Source: Treponema sp.
GTDB taxonomy: Bacteria; Spirochaetota; Spirochaetia; Treponematales; Breznakiellaceae
Direction: 5' to 3'
Assembly: GCA_031266875.1 (NCBI GenBank)
Contig: JAISAE010000080.1
Span: 1-64,000, forward strand
DNA length: 64,000 bases
In this document: one piece after another, positions 2,002-62,362 of the stretch
Numbering within the stretch: position 1 is the first letter of the stretch
Layout: each line of letters opens with the position of its first letter
The notes under the pieces: generated by a model
What the model saw: the letters and a program-made list of their open reading frames with translations, nothing else
The model's database searches: none
Told to the model about the DNA's origin: nothing
Program-made: the position numbers and the translations under genes

Positions 2002-3072
2002 ATGAACAAGATCATTCTTAAAGCCGAAGACCTTGACGGCTACCTGAGTAGCGCTGACCGCGAATACCTGTCCCGCATGGACAGTATCTACCGTGAGGTG
2101 ATGGCCGATTTCACCATGCTTTCCGGCAAGCCGTCCGTGTCTGAGTACGAGCGGGAGGAGCAGACCCTCATTGCGCGGTATAACGTGATGGGAAGCCTCA
2201 TGCAGGATATATGCAAAACTGAAACCGCCTTGCAGGTGTATTCGTTCAAAACGCCCCATGAGAATCACGCCGAGGCGTCCCGGCTCATCGCTAAGCTGCG
2301 CGACGTCAGAACCCAGCAGGGAGAGTTTGTCTACTATATACAGCGGGCTTATGAGCTGCTGTTTAAGCTGGCGTATGGCGGTCTGGCCGGAAGGAATAAG
2401 CATTACTTCTTCATCAAAACGCCGGTGAGTTCTCCAGTGCAGAACTACGCGGTTCACAAGATTACCGACATTGACGGGGAGATCGAGAACACGGTTATGT
2501 GCGTGATGCTGAGAGGGGCGCTTCTGCCGGCAATGATCATGTCTAAAGAGATACAGGAGTATTCCTCTCACGGTTATGTAACGCCCTTTGCTCTGTTTAA
2601 GATCAGCCGCGACGATACCAAGCTGGAACATAACATGGAGTATATCCTTGACCTCGACAAGTCATACTTCAACCGTGATACCCTGAATGGCAAAGACCTC
2701 ATCTTCGCCGATCCCATGAACGCCACCGGAGGAAGCATCGTTACTGTGGTGAAGTATTTACAGAAAGAAGGGGTGCAGCCGCGCTCCATCAAGTTCTTCA
2801 ACGTGATTGCCGCGCTTAAAGGCGCGCTCCGCTCGGTTCGCGCCCTGGATAACTGCCAGGTGTACACCCTATGGATGGACCCGCTGCTTAACGAGGCCGC
2901 CTATATCATGCCCGGCTTGGGCGACGCGGGCGACCGGATCAATGGCCGCGATCCAATAGAGCAACCCCGAAACATCATCCAGCTCATCGCGGACTATGGC
3001 GCGAATATCGCGCAACTCTACCGCGCCCAACTCAAGGAAATCGAGAACACTGTTCTCAACGAAAAACCATGA
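2002..3072 (+). CDS. uracil phosphoribosyltransferase-like protein with long N-terminal extension
   Basis: PRTase core [43 protein letters not shown]...[20 protein letters not shown]. Confidence 0.8.
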
Positions 3073-4052
3073 AGCGGTTTACCCCGAAAGCCTGGTCAAC
3101 AGGTACTTTGCTCGCGCTGCTTGCGCTGTGTAACGCCTGTGTTACACCGGCAACGTCCGCCGAGGAATACTTCGCCATTGGCATGGCTTATTTTGATATG
3201 GGGAAATATGCGGAGGCCGAGCAGTGGCTGAACCGCGCCGCCGTGATAGACAAGACCAAAACCGCGTCCGAGTACAACCTGGGGCGTATCGCCTTTGAAA
3301 ATAAGCGATACCCAGAGGCACTTCGCTACTTTGAGCGGGTGCTTACCAAAGACCCCAAGAACGTGATGGCTCTGAAAGCCACAGCGTATACCTATACCAA
3401 GCTGGAAAACCTTGATAAGGCGGAATCTGTGTACCGGCAGGTGCTGACGCTTGTTCCCGAAAGCGCCGACGACGGGTATAACCATGCTCTGCTGCTCTAT
3501 ACTATGGAGAAGTATGCGGAAAGTGAGGCTGTTCTGGCTCGCTACCCCCACGCTCTGTTTGAAAACAGCGACACGATTCTACTTTATGCGCGGGTGCAAA
3601 AGATACAGCATAAGCCTGAAGCGGTGAATATGTATGAACGCTACCTTGAAATGAAAAGCGATCCAGTCGCGCACTATGAGTTTGCCGTGATTCTGGAAGA
3701 AGGCGGCTTTTTTGCCCGCGCTCTTGAGGAGTACCGCGCCGCGCTCAAAGACCTGCCGGACAAGAGCGAGAACCCCACCAAGACCGGCCTGCGCTTCAGC
3801 ATAGGGAAGCTACTGCTGATCGCGGACAGCAGCAGCGAAGAAGGCATAAGCGAGCTTGAGGCCGCTGTGAAAGATGGCTTTAAGGACACGGACGAACTGG
3901 AAAAGCTCCTTGAGGAACGGGCAATCAGCGATGCGCGTAAAGCTGATATACGCCGGATCATCGACAACATTAACAAAGTACCAGAAGAATCTTCACCAGA
4001 AGAGACTCAGGAAACACAAACGCCGGAAGAGGAAGAGTCCGCTAAAACATGA
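3069..4052 (+). CDS. TPR-repeat lipoprotein
   Basis: Signal peptide [10 protein letters not shown], several TPR units; overlaps preceding stop. Confidence 0.8.
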
Positions 4053-4338: not shown

Positions 4339-4962
4339 ATGATTAGCAAACAATTTATCGGTATATTCAGCATCGTCATGCTCTTGAGTTCCTGTATCGG
4401 GGTAAACGCCGATATGGTACTGCAGGCAAACGGCTCAGGAAGCATAACGCTTGAGTACCATGTGTCCCAGTTCCTTGAAAGTCTGGGCAAACTCGATGGG
4501 AACGAGAACTGGCCGCTGATTCCGGTCGGTCGTGCTGACTTTGAGCGCAGTGTGCAGCGCATCGACGGCCTGAAGCTCGTGTCCTTTGCCACAAAAAAGC
4601 TGGACCCGGATATTGTTTACACCGTTAAGCTGGAATTCAGCAGCCTTGATGTCCTTGTTCGCTTCCTTGACGCCACAGGCAGCCGCGCTGTTCTCACGCA
4701 AGAGGCTGGCAAAACCCGCCTCTCTCTGATGTTAAGCAGCGGGCAGGACATTGATCCTGATCTGCTGTCCCTGTTTACCAGCGTGTCTCAGCCGTACTCA
4801 ATTGCGCTCAGCCTTTCCGCGCCAAACAACGCCACCCTTTCAGTGTCTGGCGACACAGATGGCGCGTCCATAGTGCCAAGCGGCCGCAAGGTTTCGTTCA
4901 GCGCCCCGCTTCCGGCGATTCTCAAGCAAAGCGCCGGCACGACGGTGGATATTCAGTGGTAG
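4339..4962 (+). CDS. putative lipoprotein of unknown function
   Basis: ORF with lipobox LLSSCIG; RBS at 4326-4333. Confidence 0.65.
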   Translation: MISKQFIGIFSIVMLLSSCIGVNADMVLQANGSGSITLEYHVSQFLESLGKLDGNENWPLIPVGRADFERSVQRIDGLKLVSFATKKLDPDIVYTVKLEFSSLDVLVRFLDATGSRAVLTQEAGKTRLSLMLSSGQDIDPDLLSLFTSVSQPYSIALSLSAPNNATLSVSGDTDGASIVPSGRKVSFSAPLPAILKQSAGTTVDIQW

Positions 4963-4963
4963 T

Positions 4964-5039
4964 AAACATTATTGAGTTTGTTGTATGCGTATTACGATAG
5001 CTCAATCAACTCGACCATTAGGGACTTTTCCAGTAATCC
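4964..5039 (+). repeat. degraded duplicate of nadE start region (copy A of direct repeat; copy B 6008-6083)
   Basis: aacattattgagtttgttgtATGCGTATTACGATAGCTCAATCAACTCGACCATTAGGGACTTTTCCAGTAATC vs 6008+ taacattatggagtttgtcttATGCGTATTGCGATAGCTCAAATCAATTCGACCATTGGGGATTTTTCCGGTAATC; 1-nt deletion shifts frame. Confidence 0.9.
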
Positions 5040-5925
5040 AACAACCGCCAAGCGGCGCAGGATAACCGCCAAGCGGCGCAGAACAACCGCCAAGCGATAA
5101 ACAAAAACCGCTGAACGGCTCGCAAAAACCGCCAAGCCATTGACAAAAACCGCCAAGCGATAAACAAAAACCGCCAAGCAACAGACAAAAACCGCCAAGC
5201 GATAAACAAGTACCGCCAAGCCATTGACAAGAACCGCCAAGCGATAGACAAGAACCGCCAAGCGATAAACAAGTACCGCCAAGCCATTGACAAAAACCGC
5301 CAAGCGATAAACAAGTACCGCCAAGCGATAAACAAGTACCGCCAAGCGATAAATAAGTACCGCCAAGCGATAAATAAGTACCGCCAAGCGATAAATAAGT
5401 ACCGCCAAGCCATTGACAAAAACCGCCAAGCCGCTGACAAAAACCGCCAAGCGATAAACAAGTACCGCCGAGGTGTGGATAACAACCGCCGAGTGGCTCA
5501 GAAAAACCGCCGAGCAGTGCGCAACAACCGCCAAGCGGCGCAGAACAACCGCCAAGCGGCGCAGAACAACCGCCGAGCGGCGCAGAACAACCGCCGAGCG
5601 GCGCAGAACAACCGCCAAGGCGTGGACAACAACCGCCAAGCGACGCAGAACAACTGCCAAGCGGTGCGTAACAACCGCTAGACGGCTCGCAATAACCGCC
5701 AAGCGGTACGCAACGATTGCCAAGAGGTGCGCAATAACCGCCAAGCGATAGATAACAACCGCTGAGGCGTGGTCAATAACCGCCGAGCGGCTCGCAATAA
5801 CCGCCAAGTGGCTTAGAACAACCGATAAGTGGCTTAGTCAATAACCGCCTAGCGGTGCGCAATAACCACTGAGGCGTGGACAATAACCGCCTAGTGGCGT
5901 GGAATAACCGTTCAATGTAAAATAA
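5040..5925. repeat. 21-bp-period tandem array 1 (about 40 units, e.g. AAGTACCGCCAAGCGATAAAC / AACCGCCAAGCGGCGCAGAAC)
   Basis: Direct reading; + frame heptads NNRQAAQ, - frame LAVLVYR, ORFs open for up to 271 aa on the minus strand. Confidence 0.95.
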
Positions 5926-6028
5926 GCGGAGGCTGCGTCAACACGTTGTGTTGATGTTTGTTTAGTGTATGGAGTTTGCGAAGCAGACTCAAACACAGGA
6001 ACCTATTTAACATTATGGAGTTTGTCTT

Positions 6029-7768
6029 ATGCGTATTGCGATAGCTCAAATCAATTCGACCATTGGGGATTTTTCCGGTAATCGTGAAAAAATCATGGCG
6101 TTTGCTCGACGGGCGCTTGAAAAGCGCGCTGACCTTGTGCTGTTTCCAGAGCTGGCGATCTGCGGATATCCGCCTATGGATATACTGGATCAGGATCGCT
6201 TTGTTGAACTTAACATCAGGACAGCGCGTATCCTGCAACGGGAACTGCCGCCGGAACTGGCTGTGGGAGTCGGCTTTGTAAACCGGAATCCCTATTCAGG
6301 CGGCAAGGCGCTGGTGAACAGCTACGGTATTCTTCAGGGGGGGAAACTGGCGTTTGAACAGCTCAAGACCCTCCTGCCCACCTACGATGTGTTTGATGAG
6401 GCGCGAAACTTTGAGCCGGCGCGTGAATGGCAGGTCTTTAAGTGGAAGGGCGAGCGTGTAGGCGTGGCGATCTGCGAGGATGTGTGGCGGGAAACCGCTG
6501 TTCCGGGTACGAACTACATCAACGATCCGGTGCGTCGGCTCTTGGACGCGGGCGCAAGCATACTCTGTGTACCATCCGCGTCGCCCTATGTGGCGGGAAA
6601 GCTCAAGGTTCGCCGCGTCCTTGCCGAGCGGATAAGCCTGCGGGGAAACATCCCGCTTGTCTACCTCAACGCTGTTGGGGCGAATGACTCAATCATCTTT
6701 GACGGACGCTCGTTTGTTGTCGCGCCTAACAAAAGCGTGCAGGTTTCCGCAAAGGCGTTTGAGGAAGACCTCGTTATATGGGACAGTGCGGAACAGCCTA
6801 TGAGCAGAAAGGTGCCAGAGACCTGTTCAGACGCTCCTGTTGTGTTTCAGAAAGAGCCGGACGACCCGTTTAAGGTTGGCCTTACGCGGGAAGAACTTGA
6901 CGTGCTTGAGGACGCGCTCGTTATGGGCATCCGTGAGTACATGGCAAAATGCGGCTTCAGCCGCGCTCATCTGGGGCTTTCAGGCGGCATTGACTCGGCG
7001 CTGGTGGCGTATCTTGCGTTTCGGGCGCTTGGCAGTGATAAGGTCGTCTGCTTCAGTATGCCTTCGCGCTTCTCTTCACAAGGGTCAAAGGATGACGCTG
7101 CGGAACTTGCGCAAAACCTCGGCGTGCGCTACGTTACCCTGCCCATAGAGCAGGTGTTCACGAGCTTTCTGTCTACTCTGAGTGATGTTTTTGAGCAAAG
7201 GCCGTTTGATATTGCCGAAGAAAACCTACAGGCCCGCATACGCGGTACGCTGCTCATGGCTTTTTCCAACAAGTTCGGTTCCATGCTGCTCACCACTGGT
7301 AACAAGAGCGAGCTTGCTATGGGTTACTGCACCCTGTATGGCGACACGAATGGCGCGCTTGGACCCATAGGCGATGTGTTTAAGACCGAAGTTTTTGCCC
7401 TGTGCCTCCGTATCAACGAAAAAGCCATTGCCGCGACCGGTTCGGCCATCATTCCCGAAGCCATCATCGCCAAGCCGCCCTCAGCGGAACTGCGCCCTAA
7501 CCAGAAGGATCAGGACAGCCTGCCGCCCTACGAGGTGTTGGATGAAATCCTCAAGCTCTACCTTTTTGAAAACCTGTCGAAAGATGAGATTGTCGCACGC
7601 GGCTGGGATGGCGAACTTGCGGCGCGGGTTATTAAAACCGTGGCTCGCGCCGAGTTCAAACGCCGCCAAGCCCCGCCTGTGTTAAAAGTATCGCCCCGCG
7701 CCTTTGGTATGGGACGTCGTATGCCCATAGCCCGCAGTATCTACGAGCTGGAAACCACGCGGGAATAA
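6029..7768 (+). CDS. nadE: NAD+ synthase (glutamine-hydrolysing)
   Basis: N-terminal nitrilase/CN-hydrolase domain (ELAICGYPPMD, ICEDVW) plus synthetase SGGIDSALVAYLAFRALG and TGNKSELAMGYCTLYGD. Confidence 0.95.
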   Translation: MRIAIAQINSTIGDFSGNREKIMAFARRALEKRADLVLFPELAICGYPPMDILDQDRFVELNIRTARILQRELPPELAVGVGFVNRNPYSGGKALVNSYGILQGGKLAFEQLKTLLPTYDVFDEARNFEPAREWQVFKWKGERVGVAICEDVWRETAVPGTNYINDPVRRLLDAGASILCVPSASPYVAGKLKVRRVLAERISLRGNIPLVYLNAVGANDSIIFDGRSFVVAPNKSVQVSAKAFEEDLVIWDSAEQPMSRKVPETCSDAPVVFQKEPDDPFKVGLTREELDVLEDALVMGIREYMAKCGFSRAHLGLSGGIDSALVAYLAFRALGSDKVVCFSMPSRFSSQGSKDDAAELAQNLGVRYVTLPIEQVFTSFLSTLSDVFEQRPFDIAEENLQARIRGTLLMAFSNKFGSMLLTTGNKSELAMGYCTLYGDTNGALGPIGDVFKTEVFALCLRINEKAIAATGSAIIPEAIIAKPPSAELRPNQKDQDSLPPYEVLDEILKLYLFENLSKDEIVARGWDGELAARVIKTVARAEFKRRQAPPVLKVSPRAFGMGRRMPIARSIYELETTRE

Positions 7769-17973: not shown

Positions 17974-18267
17974 TTATTTATTTAATCGAAAACCAAAGTT
18001 TCCGCTTAAACGCGAGTGTACTACTTCTGAAACAGAAGAAACGTTATGAGTCTTAGCCATAAGCAAGAAATCCCGCATACGCCGGGCCTCCGGTTCGTAC
18101 AAATAGTAGATTGTGTAGTTCGTGTCCGGCCAAAAACAGTAATTGCGACCGGTTTTTAAGGTAAGCTTGTTCGTGCCGGCTTGTAACATATACGCGGCGT
18201 TCACTGTGGCCAAAACGCCTCTCTTCCCGCCGGTATTAACGCCGTACTGGAAATTATACCCGCGCAT
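17974..18267 (-). CDS. hypothetical protein, possibly a remnant
   Basis: 97-aa ORF upstream of the GH18 gene on the same strand; no recognised domain. Confidence 0.3.
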   Translation of the reverse strand: MRGYNFQYGVNTGGKRGVLATVNAAYMLQAGTNKLTLKTGRNYCFWPDTNYTIYYLYEPEARRMRDFLLMAKTHNVSSVSEVVHSRLSGNFGFRLNK

Positions 18268-18278
18268 GGGAAGGTACG

Positions 18279-18378
18279 TTGTAAGTAAACAGATGTCCGG
18301 CAGGCATCTGACGTTTTCTCAAGTTCACGCTAAGATTCTAGCGGGCTGTAAAAAAGTGTCAAGTGGTTTTAGAAAACT
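18279..18378. repeat. dispersed intergenic repeat, copy 3 (hairpin CAGATG-TCCGGCAGG-CATCTG)
   Basis: Shares GTTGTAAGYAARCAG, hairpin loop and CTGACGTTTTCTCAAGTTCA...AAGATTCTAGC...GTCAAGTGGTTTTAGAAAA with copy 1. Confidence 0.85.
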
Positions 18379-18499
18379 TTTTTGAATTCCGCAAAAAATT
18401 TTGGCGCACGGGGATGGAGCGTTCTACGCCATGCGCGGCGGGATACTTCAATGGTACGTGTACCAGACGGGCGCGGCGCTCCGCGCCAAAAGCCGCGCC

Positions 18500-18880
18500 G
18501 CAGGTGGAGGCGCGGCCCGCTTCCTCCACAGCTACCGGCAAACAGGTCTGTGTACAAGTCCGCACGCCTGACCAAGAAAAGACGCGCCAGTGCTAAGTAA
18601 CCATGTTCGGTGTCAGAGACCGGGCGGAGGTGTAGGCGCGGCCCGCTTCCTCCACAGCTACCGGCAAGCAGGTCTATGTCCAAGCCCACGCGCCTGACCA
18701 AGAAAAGACGCGCCATTGCTAAGTATCCGTGTGAGGCGTCAGAGACCGGGCGCAGGTGTAGGCACGGCCCGCTTCCTCCACAGCTACCGGCAAACAGGTC
18801 TGTGTACACGCCCACGCGCCTGACCAAGAAAAGACGCGCCATTGGTAAGTAACCGTGTTCGGTGTCAGAGACCGGGCGGA
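18500..18880. repeat. 126-bp-period minisatellite, about 3 copies
   Basis: 'gctaccggca' at 18531, 18657, 18783; long conserved block CCCGCTTCCTCCACAGCTACCGGCAARCAGGTCT...CTGACCAAGAAAAGACGCGCCA. Confidence 0.95.
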
Positions 18881-18885
18881 TAAGT

Positions 18886-19281
18886 ATGAAAAACCTGCGT
18901 AATATGGGTAATCTGTGGACCATGTTCCTTGACCATGCGCTTAACGTGCTGACAGTGTGGCGCTTACTCCCAGGAGCAAGTCATTGGCGTCTAGGATTGA
19001 ATCGCTGGCGTCTGGGAGCGGGTCATTCACTTCTAGGAGCGGATGGCTCACTTCTAGGAGCGGATGATTCACTTCTAGGAGCGAGTGGCTCACTTCTAGG
19101 AGCGAGTCATTGGCGTCTGGGAGCGGGGCGCTTATTCTCAGGAGGGAATAGCTTGTTCCTTAGAGGGAGTGGCGTATTCTCAGGAGTGGGTGGCTGGCGT
19201 CTGGGAAAAAATCATTTATGTTCTGGCGGTACTTGTCAAAGTTATAAAAGTATATCATTATCAATATCAGGAGGAAATTAA
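18886..19281 (+). CDS. possible heptad-repeat leader ORF containing array 5
   Basis: MKNLRNMGNLWTMFLDHALNVLTVWRLLPGASHWRLG...LLGADGSLLGADDSLLGASG...; TAA stop 1 nt before the next ATG (ATTAACATG) and inside its SD region. Confidence 0.4.
   Translation: MKNLRNMGNLWTMFLDHALNVLTVWRLLPGASHWRLGLNRWRLGAGHSLLGADGSLLGADDSLLGASGSLLGASHWRLGAGRLFSGGNSLFLRGSGVFSGVGGWRLGKNHLCSGGTCQSYKSISLSISGGN
18973..19224. repeat. 21-bp-period tandem array 5 (about 12 units, consensus GGAGCGRRTSRYTSRCTTCTA)
   Basis: Units read: ggagcgggtcattcacttcta / ggagcggatggctcacttcta / ggagcggatgattcacttcta / ggagcgagtggctcacttcta ... Confidence 0.95.
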
Positions 19282-26872: not shown

Positions 26873-27529
26873 ATGGAGATAGAAGTGGAAAAAACGCGAC
26901 AGGAAGTATTAGTGGTTCAACTGCCAAAAGTACATACGAGGGTAATCAACTTCCATGAAGTAAAGACTGAAATCATCAGGAAAGCGATACATTTTCTTAT
27001 CGCGTTAAGCCCTACGCTTGCGGAGCTTAACCATCCGCTCACCATGATTTTCCTTATGGCTGGCACGCTGTTTTACACATGGGTAGAATACCTGCGTCTT
27101 TCAGGCATCAATGTTCCCCTCATCTCTTCCATTACTAATATGGCGTCGCGCACCCGCGATAAGGGGCGGTTCGTGCTGGGGCCAGTTACGCTGGGCCTTG
27201 GCGCACTGCTTTCCCTCCTGCTCTACCCGTCGCCCGCCGCTACCATTGCCATTTATGCGCTGGCCTTTGGCGATGGCGTTGCTAGTCTCGTCGGCAAGCT
27301 CTTTGGCCGCTATCGTCCCGCATTCCTGCGCGGCAAAAGCCTCGAAGGTTCCATTGCCTGCTTTATGGCGGTGTTCCTTGCCGCCTACTACGTTTGCTGG
27401 GATTACAAAATCGCCCTGAGCGCCGCCATAAGCGCCACGCTTGCGGAGGCTCTGCCGATCAGGGACTACGACAATCTGATCATTCCGCTCATTGTAGGTT
27501 TCACGGTTAAGTTAGTAGCCGGTGTTTAG
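26873..27529 (+). CDS. SEC59/dolichol-kinase-like phosphatidate cytidylyltransferase family protein
   Basis: IRKAIHFLIALSP, YALAFGDGVASLVGKLFGRYRPAFLRGKSLEGSIACF, ALPIRDYDNLIIPL. Confidence 0.85.
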   Translation: MEIEVEKTRQEVLVVQLPKVHTRVINFHEVKTEIIRKAIHFLIALSPTLAELNHPLTMIFLMAGTLFYTWVEYLRLSGINVPLISSITNMASRTRDKGRFVLGPVTLGLGALLSLLLYPSPAATIAIYALAFGDGVASLVGKLFGRYRPAFLRGKSLEGSIACFMAVFLAAYYVCWDYKIALSAAISATLAEALPIRDYDNLIIPLIVGFTVKLVAGV

Positions 27530-28030
27530 CTCCGAGCCTAGCGCGGTATGCTTCGAGCCTAAGCGTTGTTTAGCTCTGAGCGTATTGCGTTTGGTTCCGA
27601 GTGTATCGTGTTTAGCTCCGAGCGTATTGTGTTTGGTTCCGAGCCTAGTGCGTTTAGTTCCGAGCGTATTATGTTTAGCTCCGAGCGTATTGCGTTTGGT
27701 TCCGAGCGTATCGTGTTTAGCTTCGAGCGTATTATGTTTAGCTCTGAGCGTATTATGTTTGGTTCCGAGCGTATCGTGTTTAGCTCCGAGAGTATTGCGT
27801 TCAGTTCCGAGCATATTGTGTTTAGCTCCGAGAGTATTGCGTTTAGTTCCGAGCGTATTATGTTTAGCTCCGAGAGTATTGCGTTTAGTTCCGAGCGTAT
27901 TATGTTTAGCTCCGAGAGTATCGTGTTTAGCTCCGAAGCTACCGCGTTTAGTTCCGAGCGTATTATGTTTAGCTCCGAGCATATTATGTTTAGCTCTGAG
28001 AGTATCGTGTTTAGTTCCGAGGGTACAGCT
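27522..28030. repeat. 21-bp-period tandem array 2 (about 24 units, e.g. TTTAGCTCCGAGCGTATTGTG)
   Basis: Direct reading; heptads FSSERIM on one plus frame, HNTLGAK on minus; three frames open for 167-177 aa. Confidence 0.95.
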
Positions 28031-28068: not shown

Positions 28069-28872
28069 ATGATAGAGTTAAGGGATATACACAAAACGTT
28101 TCGCGTGGCTAGGCGTGAAAAAGGCGTAGTGGCGGCGGCAAAGGCGCTTTTTCACCGGCAGTACGAGGAAAAACACGCCCTTGCCGGCATTTCCTTCACG
28201 GTTGAAGCCGGCGAAATCGTAGGCTTCATCGGGCCAAATGGCGCGGGCAAGTCCACAGCCATCAAGATTATGAGTGGAATTCTGGTTCCCGACTCAGGCC
28301 AGTGTACGGTTCTGGGCGTTACCCCGTGGAAGAACCGCGTCTCCTATGTGTCGCATATCGGGGTGGTGTTCGGTCAGCGAATCCAGCTTTGGTGGGATGT
28401 GCCGGTTCAGGATTCGTTTGAGCTATTGAGGGACATTTACCGGATTCCCCAGCCGCAGTTTGATGAAACGCTGGCGGAATTGACTGATGTGCTGGAACTG
28501 GCAGAGCTTCTGGCTGTGCCGCTGCGTCAACTCAGTTTGGGTCAGCGAATGCGTTGTGAGATTGCCGCCTCGCTCCTGCACAAACCAGCAGTGCTGTTTC
28601 TGGACGAGCCGACTATTGGGCTTGACGCGATCTCAAAGCTGGCGACCCGCGCCTTTATTGCGCGGCTTAACCAAACGCGCAAGATCACGGTTATCCTCAC
28701 CTCGCACGACATGGATGACATAGAGGCGCTCACCGACCGAATCCTGCTCATTGACGCGGGGAAGATACGCTACGACGGTTCTCTGGCAGGGATTCGGGAA
28801 CGCTATGACCATGACGGCGGGCGTAGTATTGAGGAGATTATTGCCGCGCTTTATCAGGACCGGAATCTATGA
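28069..28872 (+). CDS. ABC-2 type transporter ATP-binding protein
   Basis: Walker A GPNGAGKSTAIK, LSLGQRMRCEIAASLLHKPAVLFLDEPTIGLD. Confidence 0.95.
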   Translation: MIELRDIHKTFRVARREKGVVAAAKALFHRQYEEKHALAGISFTVEAGEIVGFIGPNGAGKSTAIKIMSGILVPDSGQCTVLGVTPWKNRVSYVSHIGVVFGQRIQLWWDVPVQDSFELLRDIYRIPQPQFDETLAELTDVLELAELLAVPLRQLSLGQRMRCEIAASLLHKPAVLFLDEPTIGLDAISKLATRAFIARLNQTRKITVILTSHDMDDIEALTDRILLIDAGKIRYDGSLAGIRERYDHDGGRSIEEIIAALYQDRNL

Positions 28873-29353
28873 AGCGGGAATATCATTTCAGCGCGTATTG
28901 GGCTATCTTCAGGATGCGCCTCATCGCGGGTATGCAGTACCGCGCCGCAGCTTGGGCAGGCATTGCTACGCAGTTCTTCTGGGGCGGCATAGAACTCCTC
29001 GTATACGCCGCCTTTTATCGAAGCGCGTCAGCACCCGCGCCCATTGCCTACGGCCAACTCGCCGACCTCATTTGGCTGCGGGAACGCTATGACCATGATG
29101 GTGGGCGCAGTATTGCCGCGCTTTATCAGGACCGGAATCTATGAAGCGGAGAGGTCATTTCAGCGCGTATTGGGCTATCTTCAGGATGCGCCTCATCGCG
29201 GGTATGCAGTACCGCGCCGCAGCCTGGGCGGGCATTGCTACGCAGTTCTTCTGGGGTGGCATCGAACTCCTCGTATACGCCGCCTTTTACCGAAGCGCGT
29301 CAGCACCCGCGCCCATTGCCTACGGCCAACTCGCCGACCTCATTTGGCTGCGG
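28797..29353 (+). repeat. tandem duplication of about 284/272 bp across ATPase 3' end and permease 5' end
   Basis: GGAACGCTATGACCATGA...GCGCTTTATCAGGACCGGAATCTATGAAGCGG...CTCATTTGGCTGCGG present at 28797-29081 and 29081-29353; 12-nt deletion in second copy. Confidence 0.95.
28869..29144 (+). pseudogene. truncated permease 5' fragment generated by the duplication
   Basis: First 67 or so residues match the 29141-29959 permease, then it runs into the duplicated ATPase tail (ERYDHDGGRSIAALYQDRNL). Confidence 0.9.
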
Positions 29354-32837: not shown

Positions 32838-33662
32838 ATGGCAGAGGTATATTACGCCGCTTTGAACAATGGCTGTTTTATTCGGCAAACCCAAAAGGAT
32901 AAATTTTCCATACGCCCTAAGATTTTCGCGGGTCAGATCAAGGTTGAGCAACTCCAATCTGCCTCTGGTGAATCTCAATCTGCCCCCGCCAGACTCCAGT
33001 CGTCCTCCGCCAGAATTCAATCGGCCTTTTCTGAAGTTCAATCTGCCACCGCCAGACCCCAGTCGGCCTTTGCTGAACTCCAATCTGCCTCTGGTGAATC
33101 TCAATCTGCCCCCGCCAGACTCCAGTCGTCCTTCGCCAGAATTCAATCGGCCTTTTCCGAAGTTCAATCTGCCTCTGGTGAATCTCAATCGGTATCCGCT
33201 GAACTTCAACCGGACCACAGCGAACTACAATATGCCCTTGCCGAAGTTCAATATGTCCTCAATGAACCACAATCTGACCTTATCGAAGTTCAATACGCCC
33301 TTGCTGAAGCTCAATATGCCCTTGATGAACCACAATCTGACCTTATCGAAGTTCAATACGCCCTTGCTGAAGCTCAATATGCCCTTGATGAACCACAATC
33401 TGACCTTATCGAAGTTCAATACACCCTTGACGAAGCTCAATACACCCTTGACGAAGCTCAATATGTCCTTGATGAACCTCAATACACCCTTGACGAAGCT
33501 CAATATGTCCTTGATGAACCTCAATACGCCCTTAACGAAGCTCAATACATCCTCAATGAACCTCAATACGCCCTTGCCGAAGTTCAATATGTCCTCGATG
33601 AACTACAATACGCCCTTAACGAAGTTCAATATGTCATTGATGAACCTCAATACTCCTTTTAA
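32838..33662 (+). CDS. heptad-repeat ORF containing array 3
   Basis: MAEVYYAALNNGCFIRQTQKDKFSIRPKIFAGQIKVEQLQSASGES...EVQYALAEAQYALDEPQSDLI...; promoter, GGGAGAG upstream of ATG; TAA stop lies in the SD of tonB. Confidence 0.55.
   Translation: MAEVYYAALNNGCFIRQTQKDKFSIRPKIFAGQIKVEQLQSASGESQSAPARLQSSSARIQSAFSEVQSATARPQSAFAELQSASGESQSAPARLQSSFARIQSAFSEVQSASGESQSVSAELQPDHSELQYALAEVQYVLNEPQSDLIEVQYALAEAQYALDEPQSDLIEVQYALAEAQYALDEPQSDLIEVQYTLDEAQYTLDEAQYVLDEPQYTLDEAQYVLDEPQYALNEAQYILNEPQYALAEVQYVLDELQYALNEVQYVIDEPQYSF
32955..33655. repeat. 21-bp-period tandem array 3 (about 33 units) with 126-bp and 63-bp higher-order repeats
   Basis: CAATCTGCCTCTGGTGAATCT at 32955, 33081 (+126), 33165 (+84); GAAGTTCAATACGCCCTTGCT-type units after 33240. 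Confidence 0.95.
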
Positions 33663-61663: not shown

Positions 61664-62237
61664 CTGCCTCTGGAGTTTCTACACACATCTCTGGAAGTTC
61701 TACACATATCTCTGGAGTTTCCAAAGCTGCCTCTGGAGTTTCTACACACAGCTCTAGAAATTCTACACATAGCTCTGAAAACTCTACACACATCTCTGAA
61801 GTTTCCAAAGCCATCTCTGGAAGCTCTACACACACCCTGGAGTTTCTACACACAGCTTTTGAGTTTCCAAAGCCGTATCTGGAAACTCTACACACATCTC
61901 TGGAGGTTTCAAAGCTACCTCTGGAAGTGCTACACACATCTCTGAAAGATCTACACATATCTCTGGAGTTTCTACATACACCTCTGGAGTTTCCAAAGAC
62001 GTCTCTGGAAGTTCTACACATACCTTTGGAGTTTATAAAGCCATCTCTGGAGATTCTACATATACCTCTAGAAGTTCTACACACAGCTTTTTGAGTTTCC
62101 AAAGCCGTATCTGGAAGCTCTACACATATCTCTGGAGGTTCCAAAGCCACATCTGGAGTTTCTACACACATCTCTGGAGGTTCCAAAGCCACATCTGGAA
62201 GTGCTACACATATCTCTGGAAGTGCTAAAATTGGCTT
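61664..62237. repeat. 21-bp-period tandem array 4 (about 27 units, e.g. TCTGGAGTTTCTACACACATC)
   Basis: Direct reading; minus-strand ORF 61644-62270 open across it; indels near 61835 (-1) and 62090 (+1, T4 vs T5). Confidence 0.95.
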
Positions 62238-62362
62238 GAAAAGGCTTGGAGATGGATGTATACTTTTCAAAGTTGGCTTTGGAAGTGCTAAAGGTGGCTT
62301 GAAAAGTGTTACAGGCGGCTATGCTGCTTTCACAAGAGGCTTGGGGCAGTAAGGAGGTTTAT

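Follow-up and report, generated by a model that had tools for sequence, protein, structure and literature searches.

The lipoprotein-nadE locus

The stretch of DNA analysed in this study (64,000 nt, hereafter the window) comes from the genome of one termite-gut Treponema (G000), a member of a genus made up of Treponema MAGs from termite guts. Between a lipoprotein-like gene and nadE, which lie 1066 nt apart, it carries an array of short tandem repeats (array 1), preceded and followed by a copy of the nadE start (Table 1). The lipoprotein-like gene has no Pfam family, and its TAG stop falls one codon earlier than in congeners, where CAG is followed by TAA or TGA. The Pfam domains of NadE are CN_hydrolase (residues 2-251) and NAD_synthase (residues 296-548).

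Table 1. Features of the lipoprotein-nadE locus in the window.
Feature	Position	Strand	Evidence
Lipoprotein-like gene	4339-4962	+	ORF, 207 aa; orthologues immediately before nadE in three congeners, 85-89% identical
Degraded upstream copy of nadE start: leader, ATG (4985), codons 1-18	4964-5038	+	75-nt match, 88%
Array 1, ~42 tandem 21-nt units, core AACCGCCAAGCG	5039-5920	+	TRF; unit-by-unit core match
Tail between array 1 and downstream copy, ~70 nt	5921-5990	+	Terminator-like hairpin 5935-5957
Downstream copy, with complete ancestral leader, ATG (6029) and codons 1-18 of working nadE	5991-6083	+	End-to-end alignment with empty sites
nadE, glutamine-dependent NAD+ synthetase, 579 aa, intact	6029-7768	+	Pfam; 93-95% identical in congeners

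The two copies of the nadE start

Comparison of the window with itself by blastn aligned 4965-5038 with 6009-6083 over 75 nt, at 88% identity (E 1.2e-18), and a repeat search split the same match at a 1-nt deletion into two stretches free of gaps, one of 46 nt (87%) and one of 35 nt (89%). Both copies correspond to one junction, made of the end of the lipoprotein stop, the nadE leader, the ATG and the first 18 codons. The original prediction had described 4964-5039 and 6008-6083 as diverged copies of this start, the upstream one frameshifted and running into the array, the downstream one opening the real gene. This description was confirmed, the downstream copy in fact extending from 5991. The ORF opened by the upstream ATG carries the 1-nt frameshift and has 26 aa, with its stop at 5065 within array 1.

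Measured against the array-free loci of congeners, the duplicated block is longer than 75 nt: it covers 95 nt of ancestral sequence in the comparison with G001 and 96 nt with G002. In the upstream copy, a deletion between two AACA motifs has taken 17 nt out of the leader, and the downstream copy retains the whole ancestral leader (AAACACAGGAAC...), the working nadE leader being 5991-6028. The insert has one copy immediately next to it on either side (at 5038/5039 and 5990/5991), and the 952 nt between the copies (5039-5990) set them apart from an adjacent, tandem duplication of a gene start. To the left of 5991, similarity to the end of the lipoprotein gene is no greater than that of shuffled sequence (p 0.49 or more). 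As a third, more degraded copy of the nadE start, an 11-nt match in the tail (TATGGAGTTTG, 5968-5978) is unconvincing (p 0.02, uncorrected among eight comparisons). An assembly artefact is unlikely, because the copies differ at ~12% of sites and the flanking gene order is conserved in congeners.

Array-free loci in related genomes

Five genomes of the genus were compared (G000-G004). The locus is present in three congeners (G001, G002 and G004); in the fourth (G003, 55% complete) no nadE match was found. All three have a single nadE start 38-43 nt past the lipoprotein stop and no array, and thus provide empty sites. Such an array-free orthologous locus had been predicted, with a spacing of 60-70 bp. 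Searched with the upstream copy, the DNA of the five genomes contained the nadE-start block exactly twice in G000 and once in each of the three congeners, so the copies do not belong to a repeat recurring elsewhere in G000. Nor was a relative with both copies and no array found, either among the genus genomes searched or among 79 nadE loci from GTDB genomes, nearly all of termite-gut spirochaetes. None of these 79 loci, a few of which have little upstream sequence, has a second nadE start upstream; the only repeat matches in this screen were of 18 nt, in locus L169. In another termite treponeme, a period-21 array lies ~140 nt upstream of nadE (L143, 5629-5858), with no duplicate of the nadE start. 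Comparison with the empty sites demonstrates both an insertion and a duplication and, judged from these genomes, the two are specific to the G000 lineage.

The two copies have not fared alike since. Over 65 shared columns, private changes amount to 5 substitutions and 1 deletion in the upstream copy, and to 1 substitution in the downstream copy; one alignment column is ambiguous, with an A shared with G002. The leader sequence AACATTAT is common to both copies and occurs in no congener. By this count the upstream copy decays while the downstream copy preserves nadE. Synonymous divergence of nadE between G000 and its nearest congener is 0.25, or ~0.12 per lineage, and private change in the upstream copy is 8-9%. 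The duplication therefore appears compatible with an origin after the split from the congeners, the counts being too small for a date.

Array 1 belongs to a dispersed, array-bound family

TRF describes array 1 with a period of 21 nt, 36.7 copies and 77% matches, that is, as a minisatellite of head-to-tail units in the ~10-100 nt range. Its edges differ: units begin at 5039, directly after the upstream copy, and on the right they stay near consensus to ~5880 and fade by ~5920. The left edge is therefore sharp and the right one decayed.

Array-1-like DNA is also present on five other G000 contigs (C1, C12, C46, C56 and C57) and on seven G002 contigs, mostly at 68-77% identity. A pattern of the unit (one pattern tested) had 71 exact matches in G000 and G002, all at array loci, and none in G001, G003 or G004; the reversed control had none. 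The same short unit is thus found at several unlinked loci, as in small dispersed repeats, and these searches make the family dispersed, array-bound and patchy among relatives.

The original prediction had the array either placed within the nadE start or grown from it. The first part stands, together with the duplication that it included, on the evidence of the empty sites. The second, growth in place by slippage, could draw on the fact that array units start exactly at the end of the upstream copy, but the units are unlike the nadE start and their family occurs on the other contigs listed above, always as arrays; we give this origin almost no credence. An in-place seed in the lipoprotein gene (GCCAAGCGGC, ~4876-4885) was likewise discarded, as this 10-nt match is likely due to chance and is outweighed by the dispersed family.

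Nor does the insert look like a mobile element. It has no transposase gene, and its tail (5921-5990) has no match beyond chance-level stretches of 15-18 nt in the five genomes of the genus. The oriented flanks of 11 arrays of the family share no end beyond the units themselves, as judged by eye. One array of this family (L067 3881-4162, on G002 contig C22) reads as lying in the 3' part of a gene resembling dehydrogenases, or beside it, with a gene resembling D-Ala-D-Ala ligase immediately downstream.

Other arrays and duplications

Flank-to-flank repeats comparable to the nadE bracket were found in 0 of the 28 other tandem repeats that have both flanks (four more are cut by a contig edge). A flank duplication as a general rule for these arrays was therefore rejected: it is not their usual arrangement, and the nadE bracket is atypical. 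Arrays of the array-1 family elsewhere have no comparable flank repeats either, and neither the constant-length target duplication nor, by eye, the conserved ends of a transposable element.

For three other insertions an empty site is available, and the border repeat is ~12 nt or less. In G001, the TPR lipoprotein gene (orthologue of window 3069-4052) contains an in-frame array of 42-nt period after codon 5, with direct border repeats of ~12 nt; this array (L031 10821-11015) sits ahead of the signal peptide and adds heptapeptide repeats. At the same place, the G004 orthologue (L032) has a single in-frame insertion of 21 nt, or seven codons (GGTATTGTGTTTAGCTCAGAA), which resembles the unit of window array 3 and is perhaps a nascent array. 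In G001 rfbA (L031 3135-3453), an in-frame 21-nt array near the 3' end has replaced ~10 nt and added a heptapeptide repeat. In the window, the stop codon of the gene that ends at 27529 is where array 3 starts, and the array is in phase with the final bases of this gene (GTGTTTAG). Genes thus tolerate arrays at their edges in various ways, through the reading frame in two G001 genes and through a duplication at nadE.

Conversely, one duplication of a gene start has no array. At 28795-29353, a 272-nt tandem duplication (96% matches) of the junction between the end of an ABC ATPase gene and the start of a permease gene regenerates the permease start, and is absent from congeners. Duplications can therefore arise independently of arrays.

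For two G002 arrays (L064 5142-5510 and L065 5065-5391), the flanking sequences are separated in congeners, lying on different contigs, or kilobases apart in opposite orientation. The arrays may mark rearrangement breakpoints or MAG mis-joins at repeats, and comparison with congeners gave no clean insertion site for either. The window also contains three copies of a dispersed repeat of ~90-140 nt (110-247, 1611-1698 and 18267-18404), at 76-89% identity.

A common period of 21 nt

Periods that are multiples of 21 were found for 15 of the 18 arrays in 159 kb of the genus; in other genera (~322 kb), 5 of 25 arrays have such a period. The 159 kb consist of the window and six congener contigs, not chosen for repeats, and the tally is our own. 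Many of the families with this period are unrelated in sequence; array loci with unrelated units, mostly intergenic, include window 18502-19186, 27522-28025, 32950-33653 and 61667-62320, as well as L031, L032 and L059-L073. Selection on reading frame is hard to invoke for non-coding arrays, which suggests that their common period is a property of the generating process. We found 21-nt arrays of termite treponemes described nowhere in the open-access literature that we searched.

How array and duplication may have arisen

Three orders of events fit the locus: a single duplicative insertion, a tandem duplication followed by the array, or the array followed by a duplication and a deletion. We put about an even chance on a single event after the split, in which a piece of the dispersed 21-nt minisatellite entered by illegitimate insertion, with duplication, probably during replication. 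Synthesis would leave the site after nadE codon 18, copy array DNA from elsewhere by template switching, and return to the chromosome immediately past the lipoprotein stop, ~95 nt upstream. A 95-nt direct duplication would result, with edges that are also those of the insert. Because the catalytic domain starts at residue 2, an insertion after codon 18 with no duplication would very probably destroy nadE. The duplicative outcome is what selection would retain, since only such an outcome keeps nadE whole; the upstream copy would then lose constraint and decay. We infer the single event, the template switching and the role of selection as a filter from this configuration. Points in favour are the array-free congeners, the asymmetry of private changes, the shared AACATTAT, the array-bound family and the sharp left edge. 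Against it, no other tested array has such a flanking duplication, the other empty-site insertions show ~12 nt or less, the duplication at 28795-29353 formed with no array, and the ~70-nt tail is neither array nor duplicate.

That array-free duplication of 272 nt, in the same window and absent from congeners, makes a serious rival of a tandem duplication that came first, which we consider quite possible though short of probable. The lipoprotein/nadE junction would have been duplicated in tandem, leaving the upstream start redundant, and the array would later have landed harmlessly in spare DNA, as other arrays insert with no long duplications. The array must then have hit the joint of the 95-nt duplication exactly, or have removed everything between, and the intermediate is found in no relative. 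A remnant of a longer duplication of that age would be expected to be still ~90% alike, and none is detectable at the right edge. Since insert and duplication share their edges and such a remnant is missing, the sequence favours one event over a tandem duplication followed by the array; this falls short of proof.

The contrast between the sharp left edge of the array and its decayed right edge, together with the deletion joint at AACA in the upstream leader, could also be accounted for if the array came first, into the short spacer. A rearrangement would then have put a copy of the nadE start on its left, and a deletion at the AACA microhomology would have removed the old left part. This takes three events, against two or three for the other orders, no intermediate is seen in relatives, and we regard it as improbable. 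Still less likely is a transposition-like origin, with the array as cargo of a mobile element making a long target-site duplication. Direct repeats do precisely bracket a dispersed sequence, but flanking repeats are missing from the other arrays of the family, as is, by eye, a common end sequence; nothing related to the right-hand tail is found in the genus, and the insert encodes no transposase.

Extending the single duplicative insertion to the genus is speculative, and we hold the following more doubtful than probable. An active process would copy array segments into new sites, perhaps through template switching during replication, with a pool of 21-nt arrays as source, and occasional upstream re-entry would rebuild gene starts by duplication. 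The 21-nt period, equal to two helical turns and to seven codons, would be a property of this process and not of any one sequence.

Relation to known repeats

By description, array 1 can be likened to the small dispersed repeats treated as a category in PMC2884548, with a unit of ~20 nt, tandem copies and one family at several loci of a genome. Unlike the repeats as described there, the present case has many unrelated families with a 21-nt period, units of array 1 that are found only in arrays, and a 95-nt flanking duplication. In the model of Haber and Louis, as outlined in PMC6947457, minisatellites are born between short direct repeats of the 5-10 bp class. The G001 TPR array, with its ~12-nt border repeats, and the single 21-nt insertion at the same place in G004 recall this outline; array 1 departs from it by its 95-nt duplication and by a unit not made from the flanks.

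In-frame selfish coding repeats, such as the Rickettsia palindromic elements and PARCEL arrays presented in PMC2996958, resemble the in-frame arrays of G001 rfbA and the TPR lipoprotein gene. Array 1, in contrast, lies between genes and comes with a duplicate of a gene start, and its units are of 21 nt, not domains of 25 residues as in that presentation. Many intergenic repeat sets near gene starts are also formed by the TAACTGA repeats of Beggiatoaceae (PMC4679880). These differ, according to their description, by one fixed 7-nt unit in short sets, mostly a few nt from the start codon, and that description mentions no duplicated gene start.

The nadE locus lets the states before and after the insertion of a minisatellite be compared, at a gene that is essential and in a bacterium from the wild: the site is empty in three genomes and filled in one, where a scar records the route taken. 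Duplication of the gene start can make an array at the edge of a gene tolerable, and in a sister species arrays are accommodated by insertion in frame. In a genus where unrelated 21-nt satellite families spread between loci, comparisons of empty and filled sites could reveal how bacterial satellites move.

Transcription at the locus

In the empty sites, nadE, at 38-43 nt from the lipoprotein gene, is probably co-transcribed with it. In G000, the 1066 nt between the two genes include the terminator-like hairpin of the tail, on the + strand just before the nadE leader, and a loss of read-through from the lipoprotein gene into nadE is a reasonable inference. A promoter/terminator scan of the region returned no promoter-like site on the + strand. 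Terminator-like sites numbered 14, against 3.8 expected; 13 of the 14 are on the minus strand and mostly correspond to the array-1 unit itself. Read on the minus strand (5039-5910), this unit forms a small hairpin with a T-run (ATCGCTTGGCGGTTTTTG). A 271-aa ORF (4992-5807) crosses array 1, probably only because the unit has no stops in that frame.
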